Positions 12,456 through 64,000 of a stretch of DNA of 64,000 nucleotides are shown here, in pieces. Below the pieces are notes generated by a model. It ran no database searches, was not told the origin of the DNA, and saw only the letters and a program-made list of their open reading frames with translations. This DNA is from Albifimbria verrucaria (taxonomy: Eukaryota > Ascomycota > Sordariomycetes > Hypocreales > Stachybotryaceae): positions 5,642,001 to 5,706,000 of the forward strand of contig JAHREC010000018.1 of assembly GCA_020081605.1 (NCBI GenBank). Reading direction: 5' to 3'. The number at the start of each line of letters is the position of its first letter. Positions within the stretch are counted from its first letter, which is position 1. The translations under genes were made by a program, and so were the position numbers.

Positions 12456-14043
12456 ATGAGGTTGATAAACACAGCAACGCTTCAACTTGAAGTGTTCTAC
12501 GGCAGTATACCGGAGTACGCCATATTATCTCACACCTGGGGTGCAAATGAGGTCACACTTCAAGACTATTCACATAATTTCCCGCATCAGAGGAGCGATT
12601 TGATAAAATTCTGGCAACTTGTCGTCAAGCCCGAGCTGATGGAATTCAATACTGCTGGGTCGATACTTGTTGTATCGACAAGACCAGCAGCGCCGAGCTG
12701 ACGGAGGCAATCAACTCCATGTTCAGTTGGTACAAGCTAGCTAAGATCTGCTACGCATATCTCGTCGATTTCGATTTGGATGTAAATCGATCTGAATCTG
12801 TTTCCTCGCGCATCGCAGGTTGCCGCTGGTTCACACGCGGGTGGTGTCTTCAAGAGCTGGTGGCTCCCAGTGAGCTTCGATTTTACGACTGCAACTGGCA
12901 TTTGATTGGAGACAAAAGCTCGTTGAGGACATCTATTTCCAATTTGACCAATATTGGTGAAGACATTTTGGCAGACAGCAACCGCATGTATTCCTGCTCG
13001 GTTGCCCAGCGAATGTCGTGGGCTTCCAAGCGAAAGACGTCTAGGATTGAAGACATTGCGTATTCTTTGCTGGGTATTTTCGATATCAATATGCCCATGC
13101 TCTATGGAGAAGGAGACAAAGCTTTTCTGCGTCTCCAAGAAGAAATTGCTAAAAGGTCTAACGACCTCTCCATCTTTGCCTGGAAAACAGGAGGCGGTAA
13201 GGGTGCCTACGTGGATATGTTAGCTAGATCCCCGGCATCCTTCGAAGGATGTCACACCATCGTGGATCCAAGTAGTTCAGATTTGCCGCTTTCAAACGGT
13301 ACCTTTGCAATCACCAACCGGGGCATACTTTTCTCATCACCAACCTTATATACCTTAAAATCACAAACAACCCAAGAAAGTGCCGACCACGTCCTCGCTC
13401 TCAATTGTTACAGGCAAGACACTGAGGGAACACAATGGAAGTACATGCTTCTTCAGAAGATTGCACCTGGGTTGTTTATTCGGGCACAATCACCAGAGAA
13501 AGGGTGTATTACAAAGTTGCCAAAAAGTCATCTTTGGACGATGGAGAAGGACTTTCATGTTCTGGCAAAAGTCACGCCTAATATACAAACTTCTTTGGAA
13601 AGCTACCACAGGCACAGTTTTGAGGTCCGCACCAATATAACAGACCTTTCTCGCTTCTCGATTCAGAGTTTAGAGCCAAGAGAAGCTTGGGATGCTCCCT
13701 GATCGAGGTTTCTAACTCAAGGTAATCCCTCATTTATGGCATACTTGAAGATCTATCCCAAGATGGAAAACGGCCAACAACTTGACTTTTTGTGGTCGTG
13801 CTTGGTTTTCAAGGCCGAGGTTCGGCTATGGTGCCTTTCGGACACTTCGTGCATCCAGACATCTGGATCAGAAATGAGGCACCAGGTCGAACCACTGCTT
13901 GGTTGGTTTCCAGCGTTGTTAATGGATTATCAGATCCCAAAGACCATCCACAAAGTGAAGGAGTCGAATTGGAACTCCCTATGTACAAATCAAGTCTCTC
14001 AATACAAACGAGGATGTCTAGGGGGTTCCTGTTCACAAGGTAA
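12456..14043 (+). CDS. HET-domain protein 1 (vegetative incompatibility type)
   Basis: About 529 aa, intronless. It starts MRLINTATLQLEVFYGSIPE and carries the HET landmarks YAILSHTWG, YCWVDTCCIDKTSSAELTEA, INSMFSWY, CRWFTRGWCLQELVAP, SRIEDIAYSLLGIFDINMPM and LYGEGDKAFLRLQEE. HET domains trigger cell death on allorecognition in filamentous fungi; the C-terminal part is the usual beta-rich tail of this subgroup. One A is missing in run 12605-12608 and one T in run 13787-13791. In addition the frame meets a TGA at 13700-13702; coding character resumes directly after it in the same frame (TQGNPSFMAYLKIYPKMENG, then VVLGFQGRGSAMVPFGHF), so this stop is either a point nonsense change or a more complex error. 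Without readthrough the protein would lack about 115 residues. Confidence 0.85.
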
Positions 14044-16843: not shown

Positions 16844-18533
16844 TTACACTAGATTTACCCATTGTTTCCTATCATTCTCATTAAATAGAGATCCATCCAT
16901 TGCCCCGTAGACATACGCATGACCAATATAGGTGTATAATCGATCAGAGGGGTTTGTTCCAGTAATTGCCCGTAATATGAATGGCATTTTCCCACCCAGC
17001 AAAAGATAGACTTCATCACCAACTTCCAATTCACAGTCGCTGGCACCAATAAAGCCCTTTTGGTCAGGAAGTGAGTGAATTCATCCCATCGGTATTCGAG
17101 TTCCTCGCTCGGTTGGAGTAGACCTTCCGAGTAAGTACCACCAAGGGGATATTGAATCGGCAGACATCCATGTAGACATTTTGTGACTAATCTGGGCATG
17201 CCATGGACTATGTATTCACACCCCCATCCTGATCACATGTAATAGTGTCCAAGAAGATGCCTAACAGCGGCAGACTTGTATAAGATGCGGTTCCAAGGAC
17301 AGCAGTACTACCTCGAGTCGCATTCGACTCCTCGTAGTAAGATAGAAGAGCTATTTCACGGCCTTCTATGGACTCTAGCTCAGCAAATCCAGTACACCAG
17401 TCTGGTACCCACGACGGCAGGTTTGAACTTCGAGTCGCCTCTCGGGTTCCTAGCAGGGATCTGAGGTCGCCTGACAGCCGTATAAGCTCAATAGATGTTT
17501 TCGCACAGATTTCGGCGCAGGTTAAGGAGTAGTCGATGGTTAGAGAAGAGCAATCTGGGAAGAGCCCTATAAGACCATAGATTTTGTCTCGTTCATTGGA
17601 GGCCAGTCGCTTTCGAAATACATGTAGTGCGAAAACGAATAACCTCCAATCCAATATGGACTCTTTCAATGTACATATTACATTTATCTTTGTTGCCAGC
17701 TCATCAAAATAATCGATAATGTCATGATTGAAAGAAGAGCAGCAAGACTTGTAGTGCTTAAGGAAGTTTCCCATCGCCTTATCCAATGTCTCTAGTGAGC
17801 TCTGTAGGTTGCCGCACTGGAACGTAGCCTTCGGAGGTAGGACGACTTCTTGTACCGTCCAGATCCTCCGCCACCATGGTAGATCCAATAACATCTTCAT
17901 AGGCAATACGTTATTCGGCTCCTCGAGTCCATTTGGCAGAAAAGAAGCAACTTCCTCACTGTTGAGGTGGATGTCCTTTGCTAAACATTCAAGGAAATCA
18001 AATGCCTTAACTGCATAGGTCCGAGGAATGAGGTTACTGGTTACTGTAGTTGCATCTGGAGTCACATCTTGAAGTATCTCGGTGCCTCCTTCAGAACAGT
18101 CTCCTAACCACATTATGCCTTCAGTCGTGGTCTCATATATCCTTCTCATCAAGATGATTTGATGTGCTTTCTCTGCTTCATCTCTTTGGTTGATGCATAT
18201 TTGGTCAGCCCATAAGTTTATATCCTCATCTTGATGGCGGATGGATCGAAGAGCGGCAAAAAGGTTGGTGGTGATGGGCATTCGCTGGCCATTGACCCTG
18301 ATGAGATGAGTAACCAAGGGATCACCCCAAGCATAAGAAAGAGCAATAAACGGTGGGCTATCTTCAAGAAATGTATTAAAAGTGGTGCAAGAAATAGGGT
18401 CTGACCATAGGCCTCGGTGCAAGCATAAAATCCGTATTTGATCGCGATGTTTCCCTAGCTGCTGGAACTGATTCAATGGGCCATCAATCAAAGACGTTAG
18501 CGAGAGTATTTTCTGTGACTGTCGACTCTCCAT
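16844..18533 (-). CDS. HET-domain protein 2
   Basis: About 563 aa, intronless, ATG at 18533. It belongs to the second common HET subgroup: RILCLHRG, PPFIALSYAWGD (residues 61-71), NLFAALRSIR, LWADQICINQRDEAEKAHQI, MRRIYETTTEGIMWLGD, and WWRRIWTVQEVVLPP. Downstream ERDKIYGLIGLFPD and SNLPSWVPDW are the usual post-HET signatures. The C terminus GDEVYLLLGGKMPFILR..YIGHAYVYGAMDGS matches the standard ending of the subgroup. Two frameshifts occur: one G missing opposite the C run 17221-17225, and one T missing opposite the A run 17051-17053; supplying both gives one continuous protein. Role: putative allorecognition or cell-death switch; the partner is not identifiable. Confidence 0.88.
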
Positions 18534-21500
18534 GACCTTTGCCCTTTGACTTAGAGGGGCTTACTGGAGCGTTGACAAAATTTCGGGGATTTCCTGGATA
18601 CGGGTTAGGAAGCAGGATCATCAAGACTATTTGTGCTCAACGGGCTTTGGCCCATGTTTTGCACTGCCCGGAAGAAAACAGCATTTGTTAGTGCTACCGT
18701 ATAACACAGGTGGGTACTGCTCCCAATCACTAACAGTCCTTTAACACGTGTTATGGCTGCACTGCCTCGCTAGCCCACAATCATTACAAACTCATCTCCG
18801 AAGATAAAGAACTACACGTAAAGAGAAACGATGATGGAGAGATTGTACCATGTAGGCGTAAGGTGTTGGGATAAACTAAAGTTCTTGCTTTGTAACTACT
18901 ATTTTGTAGAACTAGACTGACATCTAAACAACTAGCCCCTGTGATTTCTAGTTGCTTCACAATAGATGTAGACCATCACCAGGTCGCCTACCCACTACAA
19001 ATATGGCATGACATCCCGTTTCAAAACTAGAGCTGAGTGCTTAAATAGAGTCAACTAAATGCCGTAGGGCTTAAAACTTATGGCCTTGCCATTTGCCAAT
19101 TCTTGATCAGAGTTTCTTGTTTAGGGTGCCTATAGCGACACATTCTCTACGTGTGTATGTCAGCACATTATTGCAGTATGTCCAGTAAGGTACCAACAAT
19201 ACTGTTGACTACAGGTACGTTAGAAGACAATGGCCAATTCCTCTAAAACATCTTCTCCTAAGCCAGGATTGTATCATTTCCACGAAATCTGATGGAAATA
19301 CACTGTCGGCAGATCATGACCGACTATAGGGTAGGAATCTGAGAAGGGACAACGCTTTGACAATTATGCAGTATCGCGATTTGACATAGCGCCAATATGC
19401 TTCACATTCATGCCGTAAACAGTCATCCCATCTTTCCGGCAGGCCAGATGAGGAAATAAGACATGTCTTCAACAGTTGCCGAGCTCGATTAGTGGTGCAC
19501 CTCTACCGGAAACAAGGCAGGGCTTGCAGTCTCAAGCTTCATTAATGAACATCCGAGACATGGCTTGGCAGTGTTTAGGGGACAGAGCTCCAGTGTGAAA
19601 GCGCGCCAAGCGAGATTGCGGGCATATGTGTGTCGCTGTTTAGACGGAATAGTCCGTTGGGTGAGTAACCGCCCAGGTGCTTGGGGGCCCTAGTGGAGGG
19701 TCGGACATGGATAGTATTCGAAGGAGATGCAGGATCAGGTAGTTTACTTTCACTTACCATGCATGTGCCGGATTCGAATGCTTGGATTGTTTTATGTCTT
19801 GTGTCATTACCAAGGCAAGGCAACAAAGGATCCGAAACTAAGCGGACAAGGAATCGTGGTGGTGATTGCTTGCTCTGTGATACCTAACCTATGCACAGGT
19901 CGAGGACGTAATTGTCGAGCGGAGAATCTTGACCCAGATGACGATGAGATTTAGCTGAAGAGTTGTGCAGCTATCGTCGTCGACAGGCATGCATAGACAC
20001 ATACCTCACCACACGGGATCGCCGCCCGTCTCCATCACCAAGATCTGGGCAGCGCTGCTGTGGGGCGGAGTGTGCACATCTGCGCGCTAAGACATGATCT
20101 CCTTCAGCTGCGGGATGTTAGCTGGCCTGCAATGCTGTCGCGAGGGCCTGGTCACAGTTCACGGTCGAGATTGCTTCTACAGCGGTGGTGGCTTTTGGTG
20201 CAGACAATATGCAGAAAGCCATAGCACAGCATAGCCCAGCCCAGTAAAGCTCACCTGCAAGGCAGGGCATGACACCAAACAGGGGATCTGCCAGCACCGG
20301 TGAACTGGAATGTAGGAGGACAAGAAAGATAGTTTCAGGGTTCACGTTAACAAGGAGCACAGCAACCGAGAGAGAACCAGGGGTTTGGGGGGCGTGGAGA
20401 AGTTAGACAAGCAGATCCGGATGCTTGGTTTCTCTGATATGCTACCGTACGTTCAGGTAGCGCTCTGGTATAAGCCATCGGACGGTACCGAGTCATGATA
20501 AGCAAGGGGATGGGAGCTTTGGTGAGGTCACCCAAAGTCATTTCCTCATTGCAGCTATAGGTGGTTACCCAGAAGGGTTAGCAGCGCAGAGCAGACGAGG
20601 CTAGAGGAGCGCCATTGACACGGGTCCCATTCAGCTCAGGTAGTAGGGAAAGGAGTCATGATGAGACTGGTGGTGGATGGGTGGGTGGGGGTTGAAGCAA
20701 AGCAGAGCAGAGGAGAGCATCTGAGGAGACAGGACAGGACAGGACAGCACACGCGACCTCGTCGCAATCGAACAAAAAGGCCCCGATTGAGACGGAACAA
20801 TTCAGATCTCGGTTGTGCCAGGTGGAATAAGCTATGCGGGTGGTTGGGGTCCAGCGCTGATCAATGATGTCGGTGATGGGCAGTTGGATGCCCGGATTTG
20901 GGTGGTTGAGTGACATCACGAACGCAGGTGATGGATGGTGATGTATGAGGGGGAGAATCTGGCAGTGGTTTTTGGGTGAGATGCCTTGTTTTCGATTGAG
21001 GACGAGGGTGAGATAACAGGTTGGTTTGTCTGCCTGAGGCGTCTAACGTTATCCAGCCCTTTTCCCCACAGGCGTGACGTGGTTACAGCACCAAGCTTCA
21101 CCTTGGGAGCCCGTCCTGCATTTACATACACCATGATGGACGCTGGCGGCGCGCACAACTGATGACAACCGTTGACAGCTGGGAAAGGAATGCCACCAAG
21201 CTCTTCATCTACTCACCGTTGCTCCAAGAAGCCCTTGGTTCCTGAGCGAACAGGGCCGTCACGTAACGGTAACAGCCGAAGCAAATTGGACACAGCTGGA
21301 CATGGGTCCGCTGGACGGGTCTAGTCCCGTCGATAGAGGCAGAGAGGGTAGCAGTGGGTAGCAATGGGTACCACGTTAAACAAGCTCGCCGGGTAGCACG
21401 ACCGGGGGCGTAGGCCTAGATCGGTGGGAAACACGCGCGTACCCTACCTACCGCAACTAGCTTGCTGTAAGGGTGCATGCCTACTACCCTTGTCACGTCC

Positions 21501-44607: not shown

Positions 44608-46300
44608 ATGCATCTAATAAATTCAGAGTCATTGCAATTGAAGACGTTTCTACATTCAGTACCTCGATATGCAATCCTATCACATACATGGGGTGAAGAC
44701 GAGGTCACCTTTCAGGACATGCAAAACAAATACAGACCTGCAAAGCGAGGTGACGAAAAGATTATAAACTGCTGTCGACAAGCCCGGATAGATGGAATCC
44801 AATGGATCTGGATTGATACCTGCTGCATCGATAAGAGCTCCAGCGCTGAACTTTCGGAAGCTATCAACTCCATGTACAAGTGGTATTCAGAATCAGAAGT
44901 TTGCTATGCCTTTCTCGAAGACGTTCCCGACCCAAGCCCAAATTTCTCCGAGACCAACTTTATGCGTGCTCGTTGGTTCACCCGTGGTTGGTGCTTACAA
45001 GAATTGATCGCACCACGCAAGATCGAGTTCTATTCAGCGGGGTGGTACGACATCGGCACCAGGAACAGTCTTATGGGCCTGATTGAAGATATCACAGGCA
45101 TCCCTCGGCTAGGTCTCTCCGGAAACTCCTTGAAATCATATTCAATCGCAGAGAAGATGTCGTGGGCATCAGGCCGAAGTACGACAAGAGTAGAAGACCA
45201 GGCCTACTGCCTCCTCGGTATTTTCGGAATCAATATGCCGCTACTATATGGTGAAGGACACAATGCATTTATTCGGTTACAAGAAGAACTAGTCAGACAG
45301 ACGGAAGATCTTTCTCTTCTCTTATGGTCAGATCCTGAGAGATATGTAGAGTCGAGACCTATGTCTGGGAACTTCTCGGTGTTAGCGAGCTCTTCAGCCT
45401 TCTTCGGAAAAGGAGGACCCTATGCTTCCTCAACCCAGCGCTGTGACTATCAGGACATTAAACGTCCATTAGCTATGCATGCAACGGCAAACGAATTAAA
45501 TCAGTGGGAGGCCCCCAACTCACAAGTCGTGGACTTCATGTTCAACTCTGGGCCGGTGCGTCCAGGTCTGGGAACCCAGATACATTGGTCCTGTGGACTG
45601 GGTACATGCATAAACAAAAATATGTTTGTGTTATGTTGCAGAAGTCTCCAAGGCTAGGGTTTTTGAGCTTCGGCAGATATGATCCTTCACGAATATCTCT
45701 CGTTGATGGGTCGGATTTCTTGACTTTCCAACTGACCAAGATATACCTGAACACAAGAGGCACGAGCTATGCATCGGCTTACATACGAGAAGTACCTTCA
45801 ATTATTCCGGATCTCGAGATATTGGTACCTTATGAGCAGAACACCAAGATTATCATACTTGAGACTTCACCCCCATCTCGTTCTATGGGTCTGAAGAGAA
45901 GAATCAAGGCTTTCAATCAAGCCTACCCCTAGGCTCCCAGCTATATTGTCCAGATATCCGCATGATTGGGGCACCTACGGCATTTATTCCCACAAGTCTA
46001 CTGATAAAGCTCAAGGTAAAGCAAAGTACAATGGGGCAAACTCAGGAAGACTATGTTGTCGTGGTTCTCAGATTGAGATTGGGAAATCCGTGGTGCAAAT
46101 TAATCGCAAGCTCTAGCAAGGAGATTCTGGATGACCAAGACGAAAATGACCCAGAGAATCAGATAAGTGACAGAGCAAGTCTCAAGTGTTCTGGTGGTTC
46201 TGTTGTTTTTGCGAGTGTAAAGGTATTTTTCAACCTCAGACCCTGCCAACAAATCAGCGGCGAAGAAGGCCGGCCTGTTACTCGCTTCATCTCTCTATAA
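44608..46300 (+). CDS. HET-domain protein 3
   Basis: About 564 aa, intronless. It starts MHLINSESLQLKTFLHSVPR and shows YAILSHTWGEDEVTFQDM, QWIWIDTCCIDKSSSAELSE, AINSMYKWY, RARWFTRGWCLQELIAP, TTRVEDQAYCLLGIFGINMP and LLYGEGHNAFIRLQEE, the same subgroup as HET protein 1 and clearly its paralogue. The tail contains WEAPQLTSRGLHVQLW, then after a second break GQTQEDYVVVVLRLRLGNPW. Two C-run deletions (about 45511-45514 and 45926-45929) split it; supplying them yields one frame to the stop at 46298-46300. Putative allorecognition and cell-death effector. Confidence 0.9.
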
Positions 46301-49260: not shown

Positions 49261-50111
49261 ATGACATACGACCCGGTTCAGTACGATGCCATCGGATCAA
49301 AGTACGACAAGGTCAAAGAAACACCCTTCAACAAGTTTGAGCGGTACAATTTTCAGAAACACGTTCAACCATTCATCGAGGGAGGGATGCTACTGTGATC
49401 GACTTTGCCTGCGGCACGGGGTTCTACTCCCATTTACTTCTCCAATGGGGTGCAAAGTCCTTGACTGGAGTGGACATCTCCACCACTATGCTCAAAGGTG
49501 CTGAGGCTCGGCTTTCTCAAACGCAATACGCTGGCCAGGCAAAGTTCATCCACGGTGACGCCTGCCAACCACAATCATACACGGGACTGGAGTCTAGCGG
49601 CTTTGATGTTGCAACGGGAGTTTGGTTTCTTCCCTTCGCCTCAGAACCTGAGCATCTTGCAAACATGTTCAAATCCATTTCAATGAATTTGAAATCTGAT
49701 GGCGTCTTCGTCGGGGTATGCAATCACCCTACAGATGAGATGTCGGAGTATGTATCGGGTATGAATGCCAATGCTCCCGCGCGTAGCAAGCTCTCTTTGA
49801 TGGTCAGTTATGTGAAGGAGCTTGAGAACGACCAGGGCTATCAGACCTTGGTTCACACCACCAACGTCCCTGGGGGCATAGTGTGGGAAGAGGAAATCAG
49901 CTTCTCAGCATATCAATTTACTAAAAGTATTTATGAAGAAGCTGCTCGGGCTGGAGGTATGCGTGGAAGAATTGAATGGCATCGGCCCCAGATCCTGGAT
50001 AGCTGGCAGAAAGAGTTGGGTTTCGAGAATGATCCCCAGGGATGGGCGCAGCTCCGGGAGCCCCATTACTCAGTATTCTGGTTGCATACAAGGAATAAGA
50101 CTTCTGATTAG
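49261..50111 (+). CDS. class I SAM-dependent methyltransferase
   Basis: About 283 aa, intronless, ATG at 49261 (MTYDPVQYDAIGSKYDKVKE). Motif I is VIDFACGTGFYSHLLLQWGA, followed by LTGVDISTTML (acidic residue binding the SAM ribose), FIHGDACQPQSY and GFDVATGVWFLPFASEPEHL. One G is missing in GAGGGATG (near 49382-49385), joining EGG to DATVIDFACGTG. The Rossmann-fold methyltransferases of this type (Methyltransf_11/25-like) act on small molecules, but the substrate is not evident and no biosynthetic backbone gene is in the window. It is convergent with gene A, 407 bp away, and probably not part of the A/B/C block. Confidence 0.88.
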
Positions 50112-50518: not shown

Positions 50519-53500
50519 TCACGGCTTCTTGAGTGTCACCGGGATAGTATGCATTGCATCTGCAAGACCCTCGAAAAAGAAGTTACAAGGCACTTGTGAT
50601 TGCGTGCCCTGACCCCCATCCCAATCCTTCAGCTTCACGCTCTCAAGTACGAATGTAGCATCCATCGCTATCTCGGGATCATTCATTTTGTCCATGAGAA
50701 GATTGAAGATGGTCACCACCAGCAGCACCTGAAGGTCCGTCTCTGGGGCCGGATCTATTCTTATATTGTCGAAATACGCGCCCTGCTTCTCTGTTGCCGG
50801 ATAAATGCGTCCAAGCACCAATTTTGTCGAGTACTTCCACCTTTGGCCACGGTTCACAGGTCGCACTCGTGGTAGGTTCGGCGCTGCCGCAGTCCCTGGG
50901 ATGCTGATGAGGGTACCGAGAGTGCTGTTCACTCCTGAAGCTGGTCACCGTTCTCAAGCGTCACTGGGATGCGCACCTCAAGCCTTAACGGTCCTGTGTT
51001 CAGCGGTGGAGGTTCATTAAGCGGGTCGCGGAGCTCGAAGACTACATCGACAGGATTGGGACTCATTAAAAGCTCGTTTCGCTGTTGTGGCTTTGCGATG
51101 TCGAAAACTGATGTATGGCGCGGGCGCAAATAATAACGACGCGGATGTTGAATGATAGTCTCCAAGACCATATCGGGCTTTTTATCGTCCTTTAGGGGCC
51201 CTTTGCAACTGGAATGCTACTTGGGTCAATTACAACTTTCGATGGCGGTTGTCTCGAGCCCTTAGGTAACGGCGCATGTTCTGGCAAAGGACGAGTGTCC
51301 TCGTCACTGTTTTTCGGAGGAGGCGTCTCGGCCACGATGTTAGGCCGTGGTGCAACAAACAACTGCCTTGCATCTCGTCCAGGAGTGAATAGATCATCAG
51401 GAGACGAGTTTGGCGCCGAATTTACTTCGGGGGCTGGCATTTCTAGCCGCAGTTGTAAAGCAGGCTTCCCAAGTTGGGAAGCAAGTAGAGAAGATGGAAT
51501 CTGGTCTTCTTTTTCCCAAACGAAATATGTTCCGCTAGCTTCTTTCATTTCCTTCATGGCCTGCTGGGCATACTCTTGTGGATTCATCATCCTTGTATCC
51601 CAGTCATATACCGGTGTGCGGCCATCTGGGGTTTTTGTCCAGACTTGCTTTCTCTGCTGCGAAGCATCTGGCTTGATCTTTGGATCAACAGGGATGGGAC
51701 GGATCATAGCATTGAGTGTATCGGTAGACAGCTCTACGCCCAATGAGTAGCTCTGCTGGTGGTTAGGCTGTTTTATGACTATCTCAGTAAAGCCGTTCTC
51801 GCCGGGAATTCTGTCGAAAAGACACAAGAGAACATCATCAGCCACAACCTGCATGTATAGCACTTCGTTCACGGCTGCTGGTGTGCCAGCTCTCAATGGC
51901 GCCTCGACTTTAAGGTCTGGAAATGCGGTGACAGCGATACTGCGCATCAAAAAGCCCCAGCGTGGTACTTGTATCACGGTTCCTTCCTTTGGTCCTTCTT
52001 TGAGAGGCAATTTGAGGAACTCGTTGACAGCATTCTTAATTTCTCGCCGTAGAGAATCATCATCCTTAGCATGATGGTTAGCCAAGCTGAGGCCACCATC
52101 TATCATAGCATCCACCCATACGGAATCGATACAAAAGGTACGGATTGTCTCGCGTGGTAGCATGTCTGGATCTATAACGAGATAATGCAGCGGAAGGCCC
52201 GCTAAATACAGCTTATCGATGATCCACTTACGCACAGCGAGTGCATCAGGATCAATCTGCCGTGCCTCCGAGGTCCCTCTTTAGGCAGACCGAAAAGCTC
52301 AGGCATGACGCCCTCGAGTGTATCAAGATAGGCAGGCTGATTGAACTTACCGCTGTTGGCCAGGCGCATCACAGGCAGGTTCGCCCGCTGGTCTGGTGTT
52401 CGGTACCATCTTGCAGTAGCACTCTCAGATTTGATCTTATCGGCCTTGTGTGAAGTCTTCAGGTCTTGAATTGCAGCCCCTAAAGCATTCATATATGCAT
52501 TAATCGTTATAGGGTTATCATTATTCGCGCTGGCTTTGGCACGCTTAAGAGATAACGCTCGTGCTTTGCCACGCAGACGCAATAAACTTGAGCTGAAAGG
52601 GCGGTCCGCTAAGGCAAGAGTCCTGCCTAAGTTCCAGGCGCATGAGTATGAAATATCCAGCATGCCGGTCTCCTTGTCGACGGCAGATAGGCCGTTTCCA
52701 TCCAGCGAATAACCCTTAATGCCCTTCACATCTGGGAGGGTGGGAATGAATGGCCCTCGGAGCAGTGAGCTGGTTTTTTCTCCAGTCAAGACGGTATGAG
52801 GCTTCAAAGTATACCCGGTGTGTAGCCTATCATGAAGCCAAGTTTCTGAAGTTGACTTGGCCGACTCCACAAATTCCTTGAGATACTGGTCTGGCACTCG
52901 CAAGGGCTGGACGGCGGCACTCAAGGCCGCCATCACGTTTGAGAAGCTGTTGTGCTCTGGAGGGACACACATCCAATCCCAGGAGTGTAAAGATACGAGC
53001 CCAACAAAGTTTCTGTCGCCAATGTCTAAATTGGAAATGCCTTCCAAGGAGATCAAATGCGTCACGACTCGAACTGGAACGTCTGCACCAACGGGCCCTG
53101 TGCGAGGACTAATAACGACCGAGTATTGTGGCTGTGGGATCTCACTGTCCGCACTAGCCATGAATCCGCCATGTATGTCTCGGACATGGGCCATAAAGGC
53201 ATACGGGCTTACATCGTAGAGCTGCTCTCTCTTCTTGAAGATGTTCTCAAAGATGTTCTTGCGCAACAGTAGTACGCTGAGCTTGTCGTCATCCTCGTAG
53301 CTTTTCTCGATTCCTGTTGAATTGAGAGGGCAGGCGATCTTGGTTGCTTGTTGGATGTTTGCTGTCGTGGTAGACACCGACCCATAACGGCTAGGAGTCT
53401 CCTGAAGTCCCATGCCCTTTGCATCTTCGCCATCGAGAATAAGCTCATCCTCACTAAAGGACAGAACTGCTAGCCATGGACTTCGATTAAAATGGCCGGT

Positions 53501-53884
53501 GTCGTCAGTAAGTAGCCGTTCCCATGGTATTGTTGGATGTTTAAAGACGACGTGGGCCAAGGTATTGCTGTGCTCGCTTTGGCCTTGCGCCGGATACACA
53601 CTGTGAATCTCTTCCGGGGAAGGAAGCTTGAGCTGTGGTACGGGAACGTGAATGTTCTTTATCAATGTTGGAAGGTTGTGACTGGTATCGGATGCCTCTA
53701 CTTGGATGCTCTGGTGAATGTTGATCGTGTATTTCCCGGCCTGCAACTCAGGAACTTCATGTGACCAGAGCTTCAACTGGTCTGGGTCGAGTTCGTTTGC
53801 ATTCTCAGCGCTGTTACCAAGTAATCGCTCATTCCGACGTGCGGATAGGCCCGGATATCGGGCATTGGAAGAAGCAGATAACAT
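50519..53884 (-). CDS. gene A: giant uncharacterised protein, about 1122 aa
   Basis: Intronless over 3.4 kb, ATG at 53884. Frame extends a little upstream only from a TTG. Features in order: YTINIHQSIQVEA (beta-rich start), LPSPEEIHSVYPAQGQ (residues 87-102), HVVFKHPTIPWERLL (residues 111-125), YDVSPYAFMAHVRDIHGG, GLVSLHSWDW, and further down LPLHYLVIDPDMLPRETIRT with FCIDSVWVDAMIDGGLSL; the C-terminal third contains a Pro-rich linker and a final beta-rich domain. From memory, uncharacterised bacterial proteins share the pattern VHSVFPP..LPHVVL..TLPWER and LPPESIRFF..WVDALVDGALS; I could not check this. No signal peptide, membrane helix or catalytic motif is seen. Three single-base losses (near 52280, 51198 and 50934) break the frame. 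Divergent from gene B across 493 bp. Confidence 0.75.
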
Positions 53885-54377
53885 TTTGGGATAGCCCAGC
53901 CTCTGAATCAATTGCTCGAAGAGCTATGTCCAGAGTACCAGTCCGCTCGGGTGACAGAAAACTGACAATACCGAAGAAGAAGAACAAAACGATCTATAGC
54001 CTGGCTCGCCACAATGGAAGACAGCAACGATGTCAAGGCACTCCAGAGTCTAGACACTGCCGTGCTGGCAATTATGAACCCTACATTCAAAGCTATTAAT
54101 ACTAGTCTCAGCTAGCCGCATGTATTATTGCTCGTTTCCTAAAAGCGCTCCTGCATGCTGCACGATAATGGGTCAAGCCACCACAACTAGCGTCTGTAGG
54201 CGCACTCCATAGTGACATGGGTGGACGACCCAGACTCGGTCACATACTGTTGTCGCAAGATGTTGTACTCGGCAACGGCTCATTCCATCTTTCTGTTTCT
54301 TTGGATTGCTTAGATTGAAGCACCTAAACTCGCAGTCGTCGTGGCGAGCCAGCGAGTGCTCAACCGTCGACGGCACG
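53885..54377. promoter_or_regulatory. shared divergent promoter region of genes A and B
   Basis: 493 bp separate the start codons of gene A (minus) and gene B (plus). A GAAGAAGAAGAAC purine tract near 53973-53986 is a pyrimidine tract on the gene A strand about 90 bp from its start, typical of fungal leaders. No clear TATA box on either side. The compact head-to-head arrangement suggests co-expression of A and B (inference). Confidence 0.5.
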
Positions 54378-57300
54378 ATGCCTCCTCATTATGACCCCAA
54401 AACATTCTATAGGACTGACCCGGCTATTGACCGGTCAACTGTGGTCATTCCAACGGCGGTGCAGGCTTTTGTCGTTGGAGAGGATTTCAAGGACACAGCG
54501 ATACAAGTGGCGCCTCTGCTTCAGCCAGATCGAACTAAACTCCAGCCAAAGAGCGGGTATATTGCCCACGACTTGATGGATGACCTAGACATATCCGCAG
54601 TGCGATTAAAGGCCGCCCACAACACTCGTTTTACTGACGTACTCACTGGCGAGACGAGATCTGACAGAACCGGGGTTTATGTTAGCTGGTGTCTGCCCCG
54701 AGTGTACAGAACTGGTATCACAGCGACAGGTGGCATGAAGGGGAGTTCAGACTATGGGAATATCTTGCTCAGATCTGGGTACAAGAAGCCAAGTGACAAC
54801 ACAAATGATACTGATTCGGACGTACAAGTGAGTGCAGTCCTTTAAACTTTTGGTCTAACTTGCTGATCAGTGTCTCAGTTTCGTCAAGCGCCTGATCGTT
54901 GGCTGGTTTTCCGACTTAATGAATCTGGAGACGCACGCAGTTGTGTCTGGCTTCTCGAGAGCAATAGAATCCGCCGTCTCACGGATGCCGATCTCAGCTC
55001 CAAAGACGCGCCAGATGTCGAGAACATCACAAGCTCTCTCGTCGATCCACGACTGAGTGAACAGTCGCCACGATTCATGGGCAGGGCGCATTGGGCCTTC
55101 CACTATGATCAGCCTACAGGCAAGTCAAACGATCCCAACGATTATCAGCAACCATTCACGGTCATGCAGCCTGGCAATGAATTCTTCATAGACTATCAGC
55201 CAGGCAACAACAGCGTGTTTTCATTCTTTGACAATCTCGGTATTGATACCGTAGGCATCACTCAGCCGCCGGCTCAGGATGCCGTGCTATCATATCTGAT
55301 AGTGGGATACCACTCATGGCCTGCCCATGATCCGCTTTGCGTTATAGATCTGCGCTTGCTGAGCAACCCTCTGCCTAACAAAGACTTGATGGAAGCGTTG
55401 GGCTTATCGCTCGACCCAGCACAGGCTTTCATGTCTACTGACGCAAGTAAAGAAGGACGTAGCATTTGTCATGGAGTCATCCGAAATATCAAGTTCAATC
55501 GCAAGAAGACCGAACTCGAAACTCCATCAGTAACGCTACAAAATCTTATTTACGAGGCACAGCCCATCGCTGTGGGTTCGCATGCTCTCGATGCGCTGAG
55601 TGCATATTTGCACGTCGAACTCGTTAATGACAAGGCAGCACAAGACGTGCATCGGGTCCTTGACCAGCTTGTGACTCTCATCGTTAGGAATGACGATGTT
55701 GATCATCAGAGAAAAGTCGTGGATGAGGTTGCGTCTAATGATTGGAACGCAACGCCAGAAGGCACCCTATGGAAGTTTCCCGACCAGAACGATTCAAATA
55801 CCCCGGCTGGCGGCTCTCCGTCGCCGAATATCTCGCCCGATCACGTCAAACGGCTCGAAGAGCTCAACGCGAAGCAGAGCGCATTAGACACGTGTGTGCG
55901 TGAGTATCTGCAGCTCTTACAATCGCTTTACGGATGCTGGTGGAATGCTATCGGACTGAGAGCATATCCCGATGAGTTCTACGAGAGTAGACGAGAGACG
56001 ATCAAAGCTGCTACTGCTACAATCACCACAAGAATTACCGCACTCAGAAGCCAGATTGTTACAATGCAGCTCGATCTTCCCAAAGAAAGAGCCAGACTCC
56101 AGAAAGACATAAAATTGAACAAGAATCTGGTAGCATCTTCGCCTCGTGGATTCGGTATCCATCTCGATCCTACGGTTCTCTTTGCAGGTGCACCATCCGG
56201 CTGGCCTGTAGGATTTTCAGATCCTTTACCAGTAAGAATAGCATCACAAATTGGACCAGAGCGAAATTATGATGAATGGGACAAGGCTATCGCCAAAAGA
56301 GCAAACCCAAGTAACCCACACCCAGGGCTCAGTTGGTGGAATACCACAAGATTGCAGGAAGTAGCCAGCGAAATCGCCATGCCACTCATGACGATAATGC
56401 GTGAGTTTGTCGAGGATGATTCGGCCAAGGTAACATGGCCAGAATCCCCGTATAAAAGTATGGAGGATGCATCTGGTAAACAGGGCTGGTTCCCGCTTTA
56501 CGTGGAGTGGGAGGTCGAATATTATCACATTCCCTGGGATTACTGGGAATTTTTACCAAATGAGGAAACTGGACGTTGGAGGTATGCCATCAAAAGGAGT
56601 CAATCTACCAGAGACCAAGGCAGGGGCTGATTGCCGCAAGCTGAGCGGTCGAGCCGGTCTAACACCACAATCGTCCCTGACACTAAGGACAAGACTGGAG
56701 CAGCTGTTTGACCAGAGAGGTAAAGGCATGGTAGACCCATCGAACCTGCAAGAGCCACGATTTGTTCTTGACGATGACACCAAGAAAAAGATTCTCGCCG
56801 AGGTTGCGGCACTGGAGTACTTTTCTGCGCCGCTTTCTGGCCTCACGGACCATCTACTGACTCTCAGGCGCGGGCACCATCCACAACCCATAGCTGATGA
56901 TGAGAAGATTTTGGCAGCGTTGGGTACGACGAAGGAATACCTGGAACTAATCAAGTCTAGCCATGACTTTGCTCCGTACGGCGCCACCACTCTGCTGGAT
57001 CCGGGATATACAAACTTCAGTCCGTTCAAACCTGTCACTCATGGCCAAGCACGATTCACAAAGTTGGTGATTGTCGATAAATTCGGTCAGATCGTGGTTG
57101 GAATCAAGCCGGCAGGGCTCGATAATCAGGAGCATCCCTCCGCATTGTATCCATGTGTTTCTCCCACCTTTGCTTGTGAAGCGCTCCCAGAAGCATCGGC
57201 CAAATACTTTCCCAACACGGCAGTAAAGGCAGATGAGGACCACGGAGTCTGTCAATTCTTTCAAATACCTCCACGGATCAATCAGAAAACTCGGTTGAAC

Positions 57301-58415
57301 GCAAACTTCGTCATGCCGACGACAGGCGCCACTACTCCTTCAGTCGCTGGAGAGTGGGACAACCCAATATGGGGTTGGCTGCTTGCAAACTATCAGGACG
57401 ACTCAATCCAATTCTTCGATCCTGATGGACTCTTTGTGACTGAAATGCTCATTATTCGCACAAATGACACTGTAATGGTCGGAAATCGACTTGGCAAGAT
57501 GAAAACCCACACTCCTTCAGGACGACTGGTCGACTTTATCGAGGCAATGAAGGATTTTGCATTCACGCACAACCTATATAAAATGCTTGCTGAGTCTGCC
57601 GACTCGCTGATCTCCACCTCGGCCGACTTTGATTCAACGCTTTCTGCCGCCTTTGGCCGGCCGTTCTGCCTCGCCGACGTAGGGGTTTCTATAGAGCTTG
57701 CCACTCCTCCGCTCCAAGACACTTCATTGCTTACCTCGCCTGTTCGCATGCCCGAGCCGGAACTAGGTGACTACGAGTTCTCTGTGGCATTGGGCAACCA
57801 TACTGCCGCTTTTGACGGCCTAGTTGGCACATTTAATCGCAGCGGTCCCATTACGAAGATAATGACCGGCTATGGACTGGGGAGCAGATCGCTGGTGACA
57901 ACGGCAGCCACACTTTGCAACCACGGACGGTTCCACTCAGGGTCAAGCCGTACTTCAAGCCTGGCGACCTGACAGACCTGTCAAAGGAGCACGCCAAAGA
58001 GTTGCAATGTGTGAGCTGTATTCTCGACCCTGTGGTGCCACTGCATGTATACACTGGCTCGCTATTCCCCGCTCTTGAGGTGCCTCTCCCTCGGTGGGCG
58101 ACTACGGCAGCGATGGCGAAGCTACAGGCCTTCTTTACGTCTGGGCCCTTCCTGTGCCCGGAGATGCCGCCCGCAGATGAGGTGCGGATCTAGGTTGTCG
58201 ATGAGTCGAAGCGACCGACAGTGCAGATGCCGCTTGGAGTTTTGGGGACTAGCAACACAGTGCAGTGGCTGTCACCGAGGAAGGACGGCGCTGACACGGA
58301 GTGGGACGGGATCGCGGTCCGGCCCGTTGACGAGAAGCTCAAGGTGGAGTGCGCCGAGTTGACAGAGGTTGTAGAAGGCTTTGTCACGGTGCAGAAGGTG
58401 GCTCTTAAGCCTTGA
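54378..58415 (+). CDS. gene B: giant uncharacterised protein, about 1329 aa, with internal TAG
   Basis: One small intron (54828-54878), ATG at 54378 (MPPHYDPKTFYRTDPAIDR). Landmarks: TGVYVSWCLPRVYRTG (residues 98-113), APDRWLVFRLNESG directly after the intron, a helical probably coiled-coil segment at about residues 470-560 (LEELNAKQSALDT to LDLPKERARLQKDIK), LSGRAGLTPQSSLTLRTRLE, and LDPVVPLHVYTGSLFPALEV. These recall, from memory only, bacterial proteins with GVHLHWALPDALT, PNRWLVVR and DPRAPVHATTGILP signatures. Frameshifts near 56598-56601, 56624-56627 and 57856-57858 are each explained by missing bases. A TAG at 58191-58193 interrupts ADEVRI-stop-VVDESKRPTVQMPLG in one unbroken frame; Trp would fit. 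No signal peptide or membrane helix, so a cytosolic assembly is plausible. Confidence 0.75.
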
Positions 58416-59114
58416 GCGTGGTACAATGCCTCGACTCGCATGCAAGAAAGGATGGTTCCGGATAGGAATTGCTGCACGCCTATTCTATGTGAAGAATAGG
58501 TAGTAGGTAGTTATGTTAAGAATCCTGAATCGTCGGCAGTCCCAAAGTAATAAGGTACCTACTGTTTGCGTGTAGCTGTACAAACAACAGCCAGATGTCA
58601 CGTGCGTGTCATGGAACATTTCACATTGTACATTTTACACTTGACAATTCCCACTTCCATTTCATCTCTCATCAATTCAACTTCGACGGCCAGTATAGAA
58701 GCAGTCGTGAGATCCCCAAAGCCAAACAGATTTGGATGGCTGGATGTCAAGACTGCCCTGCACCGCTAATGCATCGCCTAAGCTTCTCCACAGCCGCCGT
58801 GGATCACGCTATCGACTTTCGATCCACCATGCATCAATATATCGTTTTGTTCAGGTGCAGGCTACCCCACGCTTGAGACCAGCTAATGATGCAGCCCCGG
58901 TAATGTACCGTTCTCTTTTTGTGCATTATTACCAAAAGCACTGGTAAAGCAGTTACCCTTGCACTTACGGAGCTTATGCCGCGGTTCGGTAGGGAGACCA
59001 AGGAGTTCGGTTGCAGCAAACGACCATTAATGGTCATTACTCGATCAAGCTCATGGACGCTGCTGCTCTCTTTTGAACCAAGCATCTTTCTGGACGGCTC
59101 TGTGCGGAAGGAAT
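58416..59114. other. intergenic between genes B and C
   Basis: About 700 bases between the co-directional genes B and C; enough for an independent promoter of C. No gene is seen. Confidence 0.5.
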
Positions 59115-62100
59115 ATGGCAGCTCCGGAGTACTCAATCCACTCCTACTTCATCAACGTAGACATCGGCGATGGTGCGGTTCATCTCTTGCTCCGTCACGG
59201 CGCAGTCGTCGGAGCCGTTCTGATAGACGGAGGTGAAAGAGAGGCAGGTGCTAGAGTGGCATCAGTAATTGCAGAGCTGCGCCAGCAGTATAATCACTTC
59301 GATTTCAATGCCATTGTCATTACCCACTGGGATGGCGACCATTTTCGAGGGACGATGGGGATGATCCGCGACGATTGGGTCAGAGGTGGCCTTACGTCGT
59401 CGTATATCGTTGACGGAGTCACCAAGTTCTATGCTCCAGCTACCTGGTGGAACAAAGTCCAAGATGCCGGAGATTTCTCTTTGGCCGAGGTCGGAGCCGG
59501 ATTCGAGCTGAGAATCGACCCTAAAGGCGTGAACCGTCGTCTCTGCGAGTTCGTTATCAGCACCCATTGTATTGGCTACGATGTCTTTACCGGCCTTCGT
59601 CTGGGTGGCAATAATCACGTCCAGATGCTTAATCTGAATGCCGTCTACCAGCACTCCACTACTCACAATCTCCATCTGGCGACAAGGCCCATTTTCCTCT
59701 GCGTCGGTTGTGATAAGAACTTCATAAGCAATGACAAACTACAGACTCCTCAGAAAAGCTGGTATAAAGAACCTAAGGGAAATGCCATGAATGCGTCTTC
59801 CATAATGCTAGCTGCCTTGTGGCCCAAGCTTAATCTAAACGATCCCCACGCATTGCCCTATACACGGCTGGCGATGCAGAAGAAGACGAGGAGAAAGTAT
59901 TTGTCAGGTGGATTCAAGATCCCACAACTACTATCGATGTCATCAAGCCAGGCCATCATGGATCCGGCAAGGCAACCCCAGAGACATTGCTCGTGTACAA
60001 CACAAAAGCCTTTGTTGTCTCGGCAGCGGACAGACACGGACATCCGAGTGCGTTTTTCCCTGTTAAATTAACACTATATACACCAGTTTGCTTATACCGC
60101 CATTCGGCTAACATGTTTGTATTAGGTCTGGCGCTTCTCGTCTACCTCATGGCTTATGCACATAGCCGGAGAATGGCGTTGCAGAATGTCACTGACCACC
60201 CCGTATTTACACCACAAGATACCCTTACTGGATGTACAAACTTCCAAGTTTAATGAACGACACGGACTGTAACATAAACAACCTTATGGGTTACGGAGCG
60301 GCCCATTACCAACTCGCGGCTGCACTCTTCAATCTGACTCAGGACGACTACATTAGCGGCTGGTTTTTAGATGCCGTTCGTCACTTGAAAAACTGCTATA
60401 CTATAAAAAGGAAGCTTCAAGATCTAATCAGCATGGACCAAGAGTCTATTAGACATAATAGGCGGAATCCATTGTCCGTAACACCAATACTTCCAAAGGA
60501 CCAGATAAATCCCTTAGATTTCCCTGCCCAGATGACTTTGGCAAGGGAGGCTGTCTGCAAAGTGTTGCGAGATATCTGGCCCTTGGTTGGTGAGCCCGGG
60601 AAGCACACGGAGGAACTGTTTACCTCTACGGGCGCAGTCCAGATCATTATCAGAAGTGATGGCATAGTCGGCAATACACTGAGGTTAGACTTGACACCCA
60701 ATATTCAACGAAATCAACTCACTGCTGAGGACTATGACTTCATCATACGGAGCATGACGAGAGACCCTGGTCCGGACCCTCTGGAAACTCGGCGGCCGAA
60801 AGTCATTGAAAAGGTGGAAAAGAGGAGCGAGTTTGTAAAGGCCAAAAAGCTCATCAAAGAGAAACGAGGCCTCAAGCCAGAACCCCACGACAACGAGAAT
60901 GCCCAGCCAGGACTAATAATGGCTCTCACCATGCCTTCCTCCCTAGTAGCTGATACCGTCACGGCGTCACCTATATCCTCGGCCGAAGAATGGGCTTTGC
61001 AATTCTTCACGGACGACCTGAATAAGCTACCCTCGCTTCCACAAAAGCTCGAGGGCTTTCCTCTAGTGGTGCCTACCTCTGACTGCTACCGCTGGTTTTC
61101 CACCTATCTGCAAATGCCTATTGCTCTTAAATTTGATGGCACTGCGATCTCTGGCAAAGCTCAAATCGAAGCAATCAGAATTGAGACACAGACTGGAGAT
61201 GGCAGTTCATCTTTACTCGTATTTGGCACTCATTTAACGTCCCTGCAGGATCAGTTTGGGAAAGACAATTTCCAGGGGCAGCCGATGCTCGGATTCGATA
61301 GCCGAGTAAAGGGAAACCTCTTCGCACTTGAAAGCTCTGCTCGCATCGCTTTCCCCGACTTCGTCAAATTATTTCACTTTGAGCTATCACCATGGGTTGC
61401 CAATGTTCTAAATGGGATAAAGCTCGTGCCTAGGCCCGTGACAAACACCAAGCCCACTCGATCTGGCATCTGGCTTCTCCCAGGAAGAAAGGTTCGAACA
61501 TATCTTCGCCTCGAGATGGTTCCAGACACAACGACCCCTGCTATTTCCGATTTTGAAAAACTTCTTTCAGACTTTTCTACCACTATTTCCATCACCGACC
61601 TCACATTCCGTGGTACCTCCCTCCAGGAGACGCTGGCTGCCGGAGGCATTAGCAAGGACGGCAAGAAATCGACACTCAAAACAACATCTTCACTGTGTTT
61701 CGAAGCGAATTTTAAGTTGTCATCGGACGAGTCAGCCTTATTTGACAGTCGAGTTGGCGTAACACTTGCTGACAGTGGTTTCGAACTGCGACTAAAGATG
61801 AACAAATCCTCTAAACTCCTGGAGAAGCTAATGGAGTTTATACAGGCGCGATGGGGTGGTGCGGAGAATTCCTTCAACTCGCAGACGTCGGAATCGCTTG
61901 CAAAGAAAATCCAAGAGATGATCGGCCATGTCGCTGAGGCATTCCATTTCCATTCTATCACGTTTGGTTTCTCAGCAGAAAAGAAGAAGCTAGTTTCGTT
62001 CCAGATTGACATTGAGGTGTGTCTACGATGGAGCACGGGAGGTATGGACGTCCCATTGATGGCATCGCTTTCTTGGTCTGCTGGTGTGTTTGTTCTCAAC

Positions 62101-64000
62101 GGCGAATTGTATAACCCAGTGGACTACGGACCCCTGCCATATGACCTCAACCCTCTGCGTGAGCATATTAACGAGATTCAGCCATTTACTGATCCTGCCG
62201 CTGATGCAATATCGATAACGAAGATGCTTGGCTTGGATAATGTTGTCTTTCCGGCTGGAATTCCCGATGTAATCACGACAGCACATATAGAGCTAAGCTA
62301 CGGTAACGGGCAAGTGACTGCTCTTGTAGAGGGACGTTGGAGTGTAGTCCTCCGTCTTTGACAGACGATGAGAGTGGTCCTCCCACAATATTGATCGACG
62401 AGCTCTATCTTCTGCTCAGTGTAAAGTACGGAACAGAGAAAGGCGTTCCCTCTGAATTCTTGCTACGATTCGAAGGCGATGTTAGCATAGAAAGTGCACC
62501 TGATCACCCGGCTGACAATTCCACAATTAACCTGGGCATCGGCGTCGAGTACCGGCGTGAAGGCAAAGACTTTTCTCAGTGGACTATAGCGGCGAGTGTA
62601 TCCAATGTTCGCATTGCAAACCTCTATGAGCTCTTTGCCCAGGATGGATCCAACAAGGCCATAATGGACGTGATGTCGCAAATTGTGGTTGCATCGGCCG
62701 GGGTAACGTACGAGTACCCCAAGCAGAATCCAGGACAGGGTCCGAATCAGAAAGAGAAAGAGAAGCCCAGCAAGTTAGCAATCAGTGGAACTATTCTTCT
62801 TGGACCTGTGGCACTCACCCTTGATTATCAGCACAGTAAAGATAAATGGGGATTCCGAGCAACACTGGCTGCAGATCAAAGCTCGAAGGCCGAGGACAAG
62901 GAACCCAGCCTCGGTACGCTTCTTGCCAACTTGATAGGCGACACCCAACCCATCCCGGAAGTTGTCAGGGAACTTAAGATACCTCTAGACAAAACGAGCC
63001 TGGAGCTGGGATGCTATAGTACCACCGTCAAGGGGATTGATGGCAAACCTGACAGCAAGTACATCGTCTTTTGCCTTAACATCACTGTTGACAAGTTTGT
63101 TGCTACCTTTGCGCAGATTTGCCCGTACTGCGACTCAACCAATCCCGAAGAAAATCCAATTCCAGGCAGGCTGATTCGATTCGGTTTATCTAAGCCGCCT
63201 GGAATAGAGAAAATCCCAGTGGTTGATAAAATGCCTGCGCCGTTCGACCAGCTGGGTATTGTCTGGGTCAACCGTGATATCACGGCCGAGGAGATCCTGA
63301 TTCTGAATGCAGAAGCCTTTCCCGTGGAGTTACCTCTTCTCATCAAACAGCCTTCAAATGATAGTGCCTCAAGCACAGGTACCAAGAAAAATCTACAGGT
63401 CTTGTGGCGGGATGCCACTTCCAAGTAGCACTCAATGAACAAGGCGCGCCGACTCTCATCCTGGACTATGTTCCGGGGCAAAGGAAACGTGCGGGGACAA
63501 GAACAAAAGCCAGACGACTACAGATATCAAAAGCAAAGCCGCCAACGACGATCCACAGCCACCTTCCGCATCGTCAGACTCAGCTATCGCACCCATGGCC
63601 AAGTCAATAGGCCCACTCACAATCAGAAATATTGGTCTACGAGTGGACAACATGCGTATAATTGTGGTTGTTCTCGATGCTTCTCTCCGTCTCGGTCCCA
63701 TCACATTCGATCTAATTGGCTTCAGCCTCAGCATTGATCTCAACCAAGCCAAAGCCCTACCGGACCTGCTCGAAATTCGGCCAGTCTCCGATGTGCTAGG
63801 CATGGCGGTCGCGTTCGAAAAGCCGCCAACAAGCTTAGCCGGAATGTTTATGAAAACGATGGGTACTTCACCACAGGATGTGAGCTATATGGGCGCCATA
63901 GCTGTTGCCCTTGGTGCCTGGTCCGCTATCGCTGGAGGCGTGTATGAAGAACATCCCGATTTCGAGTCGCTCTTCGTCTTTGGACTGGTGCAAGGTCCCA
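59115..64000 (+). CDS. gene C: metallo-beta-lactamase-fold domain fused to a long DUF6603-type protein (runs off the right edge)
   Basis: More than 1600 aa are visible; ATG at 59115, one intron 60048-60125 with a GCTAAC branch site. The N-terminal domain begins SIHSYFINVDIGDGAVHLLL and has the zinc-hydrolase motif ITHWDGDHFRG (THxDxDH, residues 69-79) and the late motif DVIKPGHHGS..ATPETLLV, then FVVSAADRHGHPS. This pattern fits the ComEC-like/competence-type branch of the MBL superfamily. About 1000 residues of beta-rich sequence follow (for example MLGFDSRVKGNLFALESSAR and LAISGTILLGPVALTLDYQH), and from about 63590 a DUF6603-like segment begins: IGPLTIRNIGLRVDNMRI, then LRLGPITFDLIGFSLSIDLN. 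Five single-base losses occur (59851-59853, 60200-60203, 62340-62341, 63387-63391, 63476-63479). Function unknown; hydrolase activity is plausible because the metal ligands are intact. Confidence 0.8.

Follow-up and report, generated by a model that had tools for sequence, protein, structure and literature searches.

A three-gene locus of very large proteins in Albifimbria verrucaria and its relationship to a bacterial DUF6603 gene module

Three neighbouring genes for very large proteins, here named A, B and C, lie at the end of a 64,000-nucleotide stretch of the Albifimbria verrucaria genome (contig JAHREC010000018.1, positions 5,642,001 to 5,706,000; this whole stretch is called the window below). 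What do these genes encode, and do they belong to one system? A preliminary description, made from the letters of the window, had suggested a multi-protein module shared with bacteria. Our analysis indicates that A, B and C are almost certainly the fungal form of an undescribed bacterial module with the order (MBL)-DUF6603-A-B-(Y), in which MBL is a metallo-beta-lactamase-type hydrolase, DUF6603 a Pfam family of unknown function (PF20248) and Y a protein with differing ends. The homology of the proteins, the bacterial gene order, the joint inheritance, the fusion of MBL to DUF6603 in fungi and the conserved metal-site motifs of the MBL are directly established.

Gene order of the module in bacteria

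A scan for B that took one genome per species found 24 loci in 23 records. They came from Acidobacteria, Bacteroidia, SAR324, Streptomyces, Streptosporangium, Actinomadura, Methylococcaceae, Methylumidiphilus, Rhodospirillales, Nitrospira, Verrucomicrobia, Pyrinomonadaceae, Kofleriaceae, Syntrophobacteraceae, another deltaproteobacterium and Eilatimonas. In all 22 loci with room for it, B was immediately preceded by A on the same strand, the remaining two having B at the edge of the stretch; A was in turn immediately preceded by a DUF6603 gene in each of the 21 loci that had room. The bacterial DUF6603-A-B genes form an operon, with operon-like gaps of 2–33 bases in L006–L009. Among the 24 loci, L009 and L024 represent the same locus, which Streptomyces olivoreticuli has twice, close to each end of the chromosome record. 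The preliminary description had suggested such co-occurrence in some actinobacteria and myxobacteria. It was found there (Streptosporangium, Actinomadura, Streptomyces and Kofleriaceae), and the adjacency extends to Acidobacteria, Bacteroidia, SAR324, Methylococcaceae, Verrucomicrobia and others. The signatures it had named are also real, HWALPDALT being present in the Bacteroidia B relative P0007 and TLPWER-type motifs in bacterial A.

Two wider surveys gave the same picture; their counts are lower bounds, because only the best few candidates per genome were scored. The order of S. olivoreticuli was surveyed in 293 genomes. DUF6603 was found in 44 and A in 32, of which 28 exceeded 80 bits, and all 28 also hold DUF6603 (hypergeometric p 4e-28). 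DUF6603 lay within 6 kb upstream and on the same strand for 38 of the 42 A matches; of the other four, three were below 50 bits and one (G050) begins 46 bases from a contig end. Forty DUF6603 loci of this order were fetched; nine of them lack A, and 31 come from the 38 that have it. B was present in all 31 of the latter, next after A in 30 by eye and on the other side in L072. In the phylum of the Kofleriaceae genome (G014), 235 genomes yielded DUF6603 in nine and A in nine. Seven of the nine A loci above 75 bits had DUF6603 upstream on the same contig and strand, as judged by eye, the exceptions being G328, with A and no DUF6603, and G380, with the two on separate contigs. Chance clustering of A, B and DUF6603 is ruled out by these surveys, and the homologues, far from being scattered independently, adjoin each other in the bacterial loci and the surveys alike.

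The survey of the Streptomyces order also contained 22 DUF6603 loci without A. Among them, the L009 locus and its copy do have A, which escaped detection because three candidates were scored in that genome. Neither A nor B was found in the nine fetched loci without A. In these nine, the same places were occupied by a family A' in seven and a family B' in eight (L092–L099), L091 being a short contig. A' is weakly similar to A (best E 8e-7), and similarity of B' to B was undetectable. L092–L099 are thus a second type of module, with A' and B'.

Some bacterial members were unusual. A and B of L006 (7027–14092) match each other with an E of 6e-22, which may reflect an inserted repeat segment common to both. 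Giant DUF6603 proteins or frames of about 3300–3800 aa were seen as P0072, at L078 1344–11360 and in G419:C76. A DUF4135 protein, which we take to be of the lanthipeptide-synthetase type, is encoded directly upstream of DUF6603 in L014 (828–2684).

Joint inheritance and fungal relatives

In a comparison of phylogenies, an idea already put forward in the preliminary description, the tree distances of the three proteins in 51 bacterial loci correlated at 0.935 (A with B), 0.849 (A with DUF6603) and 0.899 (B with DUF6603), part of which is due to species relatedness; the highest value among 999 shuffles was 0.31. The fungal-labelled sequences formed one clade in all three trees with local support of 1.0, comprising 30 of 90 tips for A, 5 of 62 for B and 14 of 105 for DUF6603. 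The trees were made with FastTree from profile alignments and are unrooted, drawn at the midpoint. The fungal label includes metagenome rows assigned by similarity, and P0049 was left out of the DUF6603 tree as its row was too short. The single clade fits a single acquisition by fungi.

Homologues of A numbered 39, named in Fusarium, Lasiosphaeria, Trichoderma, Myriangium, Xylaria, Coccidioides and others as well as in Streptomyces; the distant ones (P0040–P0048) are 26–28% identical, P0042 and P0045 being from Streptomyces. B had nine matches, five of them close (Lasiosphaeria and Fusarium where named) and four distant at 24–25% identity (P0006–P0009). For C there were 55, the named fungal ones reaching Arthrobotrys, Lindgomyces, Aspergillus and Peltigera and including P0052 of T. 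virens. The fungal homologues of the three genes are from Pezizomycotina; five lineages that were looked up belong to Sordariomycetes, Dothideomycetes, Orbiliomycetes, Eurotiomycetes and Lecanoromycetes. Those in Eurotiomycetes and Lecanoromycetes are DUF6603 without MBL, and three fungal DUF6603 proteins (P0058, P0062 and P0063; about 1600–1660 aa) have a different start with no MBL there. MBL-type fungal homologues of C are 2158–2542 aa long, and DUF6603 scored 413–530 bits in eight fungal homologues. In the alignment, the window and each of the 11 C proteins displayed have the HWDxDH motif, and most have the later motifs as well; P0057, P0060 and P0061 are poorly aligned or cut in the second half.

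Besides A. verrucaria, where DUF6603, A and B all lie in one locus (window 50522–65951), pairs of these genes were found on contigs of equal stated size: A and B in L. miniovina and on a 73-kb contig, A and C in L. ovina and T. citrinoviride, and B and C on a 22-kb contig. An equal size is strong evidence of linkage for the 73-kb and 22-kb contigs and weak evidence for large contigs.

The three genes in the window

Gene A (50522..53884, minus strand) encodes a protein of about 1121 aa, a homologue of the bacterial A family that follows DUF6603, with no Pfam family. Gene B (54378..58412, plus strand; about 1340 aa) is a homologue of the bacterial B family placed after A and has a sole intron of 51 bp at 54828–54878, read from the sequence. 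The two stand head to head, and the intergenic region of about 0.5 kb between them (53885..54377, likewise read from the sequence) presumably carries the promoters of both. Gene C, on the plus strand, occupies 59115..64000 of the window with its MBL domain, a middle region and the start of DUF6603, and extends to about 65951 (L004 1–2954). Its MBL domain (59115..60047, plus strand) has the THWDGDH, AGD, GHHGS and GHP motifs and one frame break, and scored 23.7 bits with Lactamase_B against a Pfam cut-off of 22.7. The DUF6603 domain starts at 63598, also on the plus strand, runs to the window end at 64000 and ends near 65121 beyond it (contig 5705598–5707121). It was found at E 4.7e-73 by a profile search of the genome, in which DUF6603 matches reached 249.7 and 140.9 bits against a curated cut-off of 27 bits.

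The closest relatives are P0010 for A (1121 aa, 95% identical over the full length), P0001 for B (1113 aa, 97% identical, its start falling inside exon 2 of B) and P0049 for C (1386 aa, partial, 91% identical over part of C). The three-gene block of large proteins with A and B head to head, as first described, is borne out, also by the sizes of the relatives. So is the statement that C alone carries recognisable domains, as pieces of A and B had no Pfam match. The description of C as an MBL with a DUF6603 tail stands as regards the domains, and needs correction in that C is cut by the window end and most of DUF6603 lies beyond it. The large reading frames agree in size with the relatives; what did not hold is their integrity, for A, B and C are each broken and none is one open frame in the present assembly.

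The breaks could mean that A, B and C are a dead relic in this fungus. Compared with the near-identical relatives, there are three frame changes without space for an intron in A, two in B and four in the compared part of C, and further ones occur in C outside that part, so that C has at least four. B also carries one in-frame stop at 58191, which arises by substitution and not by insertion or deletion. The nine breaks in 10.9 kb amount to 0.83 per kb. HSP70 genes, which should be essential, served as a control. All 22 candidates of the same genome (48.4 Mb in 41 contigs) were scored, and seven breaks were found in 10.9 kb of matched coding sequence (0.64 per kb) at four of eight gene loci, one of the seven being a short nested piece and less certain. 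The broken HSP70 genes sit on C8, C10, C15 and C36 of G000. A second control, PF00501, was set aside, the best 14 of its 341 candidates having been scored. Since the HSP70 control shows breaks at a similar rate, the frame breaks are probably assembly errors and likelier so than lesions. Predicted proteins of the 91–97% identical relatives are uninterrupted at the break sites that they cover, and high identity persists between most breaks. The stop in B is left unexplained by the HSP70 control. On balance we regard a relic as improbable; the control suggests an assembly rich in small insertion and deletion errors, whose gene models need care.

Neighbouring frames were noted by eye. A methyltransferase-like uninterrupted open frame at 49341–50111 adjoins the 3' end of A, and a phospholipase-C-like one lies 3' of C (L004 7384–8085). 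Open frames at 12578–13702, 17208–18560 and 44608–45657 resemble what we take to be HET (heterokaryon incompatibility) proteins, and are possible fungal self-recognition genes in the same 64 kb.

The hydrolase position

That a hydrolase is part of the module, as had been proposed, is supported by 10 of 60 bacterial loci, where an MBL gene that carries both motifs lies on the same strand as the DUF6603 gene and either adjoins its start or overlaps it. Eight of these ten MBLs are one family. A profile of seven bacterial MBLs, whose invariant columns include TH.D.DH and HHG, matched solved ComEC or competence chains with E values from 3e-18 to 3e-8. Eight bacterial MBLs matched the fungal MBL profile with an hhalign probability of 97.9, which may be superfamily kinship and no more, and the window MBL reaches ComEC through this profile comparison alone. 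By sequence, MBL is fused to DUF6603 as gene C in fungi and encoded by a separate gene in bacteria; that the two are joined in fungi points to a functional link between them.

Other occupants of the same position were an M64 peptidase (L095), a trypsin-like gene (L006; Pfam 31.5 bits) and, in L008, a gene with motifs of the endonuclease/exonuclease/phosphatase (EEP) type. The last was recognised by motif; it had no Pfam family, and its nearest solved chain was DNase gamma at E 0.25. Three giant DUF6603 proteins of about 3300 aa among the matches listed bear an alpha/beta-hydrolase family, one of them confirmed by rescan; the segment lies near residue 1100 in P0072.

The Y proteins

Genes after B in many bacterial loci share an N-terminal region, Ig-like by eye, and differ in their ends. 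A Y match was found in 26 of the 31 fetched loci of the Streptomyces order that have DUF6603 and A. The ends include propeller families (L007, L010 and L013), F5/8C (L015) and, by eye, fibre-like repeats (L008, L009 and L023); a hemopexin match in L010 was below the cut-off. L007 has five Y genes in tandem, the last one cut by the end of the stretch, and P0040 is a fusion of A and Y (E 3e-34). The gene after B in L028 has Kelch repeats and was considered as a Y, yet it falls outside the Y cluster. A correspondence of the C-terminal part of fungal A to the bacterial Y domain was likewise unsupported (hhalign probability 0.3–0.4%), and hhalign did not detect Y in the fungal A extensions.

Predicted structures and known systems

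The fairly confident structures predicted for bacterial A (L008; pLDDT 82.8, pTM 0.76, 38 aligned sequences) and bacterial B (L009; pLDDT 78.9, pTM 0.77, 24 aligned sequences) had no convincing solved relative. In the scans made, A and B matched no PHROG, PADLOC or Pfam family. DUF6603 is the link to a described family: C is far above the Pfam cut-off, and the gene found upstream of A in bacteria is a member of this family as well. Pfam describes a single domain, whereas our scans found no description there of a module that includes A, B, Y and the MBL fusion. DUF6603 was unnamed in the open literature searched; most subscription papers and bioRxiv were outside the scope, so an earlier description is possible.

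The MBL profile from bacterial genes adjacent to DUF6603 matches the MBL nuclease domain of ComEC/Rec2. However, the ComEC channel part was not reported by the scans, and here the domain has a gene of its own next to DUF6603, or forms one protein with it in fungi. According to the accessible part of PMC12799240, unrelated anti-phage systems have repeatedly acquired a ComEC-like MBL nuclease, whose gene typically stands upstream. The gated MBL nucleases treated there (AVAST, Hachiman, Lamassu, DRT and Canu) resemble our loci in having an MBL gene beside a large partner gene. They differ in that no trypsin or caspase partner was recognised in the scanned fungal proteins, and the core proteins are unrelated by scans. 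Weak PADLOC and NCBIfam matches were to LmuA, Avs1a, RTasMBL and 6A-MBL; Avs1a scored 15.1 bits against a cut-off of 420, and the NCBIfam matches were far under their curated cut-offs.

As regards phage tails and contractile injection systems, no PHROG family at all was found for DUF6603, A, B, three Y proteins, A' and B', and no Pfam tail family among the proteins scanned, the neighbours being without a systematic scan. Toxin-complex domains were absent as Pfam families from the window pieces and the homologues, as judged by sequence.

The uptake of bacterial genes by eukaryotes has a parallel in PMC13142454, in whose accessible part a TIR domain alone moved, without the other operon parts. 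In the present case, by contrast, the module genes remain neighbours. The transfer of an operon into yeasts is a further case of bacterial genes entering eukaryotes.

Discussion

The identity of the module is thus nearly settled, and its function is less so. We give a nuclease-armed conflict mechanism an even chance, and we lean slightly towards the full explanation, in which fungi have inherited the bacterial module and this is a nuclease-armed conflict complex. DUF6603, A and B would build a large cytosolic scaffold, for which the bacterial Y, with its constant start and swappable ends, would recognise the target. The weapon would be an interchangeable hydrolase, where recognised most often a ComEC-type MBL nuclease, held idle until the complex senses a target and then cutting DNA. 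In fungi the weapon would be covalently bound to the scaffold, so that its site of action would be the interior of the fungal cell or any place that the complex reaches, and the role may be immunity or that of a killing device. The closest published logic, by analogy and as far as the accessible part of PMC12799240 goes, is that of the gated MBL nucleases of unrelated anti-phage systems.

Several results weigh against this explanation. Fifty of the 60 bacterial loci lack an MBL carrying both motifs, and the MBL is therefore optional. The window MBL by itself had no solved relative at E 0.01, and among eight fungal C-type proteins the Pfam MBL was above the cut-off in P0051, below it in P0054 and not found in the other six. 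PADLOC gave weak matches of MBL-type models to the window MBL and L015 and of LmuA to L006, and nothing for DUF6603, A, B or Y of L008. The trypsin family is absent from the scanned fungal proteins (window pieces and eight C homologues), unlike in the published gated nucleases. Among named fungi B was found in Sordariomycetes only, the fungal linkage evidence consists of equal contig sizes plus one genome for the window, and relatedness of the species contributes to the correlation of tree distances. Finally, a conserved neighbourhood is also compatible with a biosynthetic or structural role.

The main rival is a released killing particle, in which DUF6603, A and B form the carrier, Y the receptor-binding fibre and the hydrolase the cargo delivered into competitors, prey or hosts, analogous but unrelated to toxin complexes and extracellular injection systems. 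The constant start and variable ends of Y, the five tandem Y genes, the fibre-like repeats and the swappable hydrolases would all suit such a particle, as would the DUF6603 proteins of about 3300 aa, three of them with the alpha/beta-hydrolase family. However, neither PHROG nor Pfam nor solved sequences connect the core proteins with tails, injection systems or toxin complexes, the fungal MBL is fused to the scaffold, and Y went undetected in the fungal A extensions; we consider this rival unlikely. Still less probable in our view is an assembly that serves metabolism, storage or structure, for instance a coat or an enzyme megacomplex, in which the MBL would be a metabolic hydrolase. The large size and beta-rich nature of the proteins, the patchy occurrence of accessory enzymes and the lack of a known immune domain in A, B and DUF6603 speak for it. 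Yet interchangeable hydrolases of unrelated folds and interchangeable Y ends are unusual in pathways, and the bacterial MBL is closer to the ComEC nuclease than to metabolic MBLs.

The nuclease-armed conflict complex may also be put in a broader form, which we hold more tentatively. DUF6603-A-B might constitute a modular conflict machine of a new class, which has protein folds of its own, a slot for a nuclease or protease weapon and a recognition slot with swappable tips. It would be present in many bacterial phyla, and its linked genes would have entered the ancestors of Pezizomycotina together in a single event; there the nuclease would have become fused to the scaffold, and the machine would now serve immunity, self-recognition or killing. 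If the explanation is true, a multi-gene bacterial system with two proteins outside Pfam and a predicted nuclease as its active part occurs in many phyla and in fungi, and the list of biological conflict systems would gain a new type. With its conserved order, its fusion and its swappable slots, the module has a function that is directly testable. For the fungi, it would be one of the rare instances in which a eukaryote has kept the genes of a bacterial module side by side.

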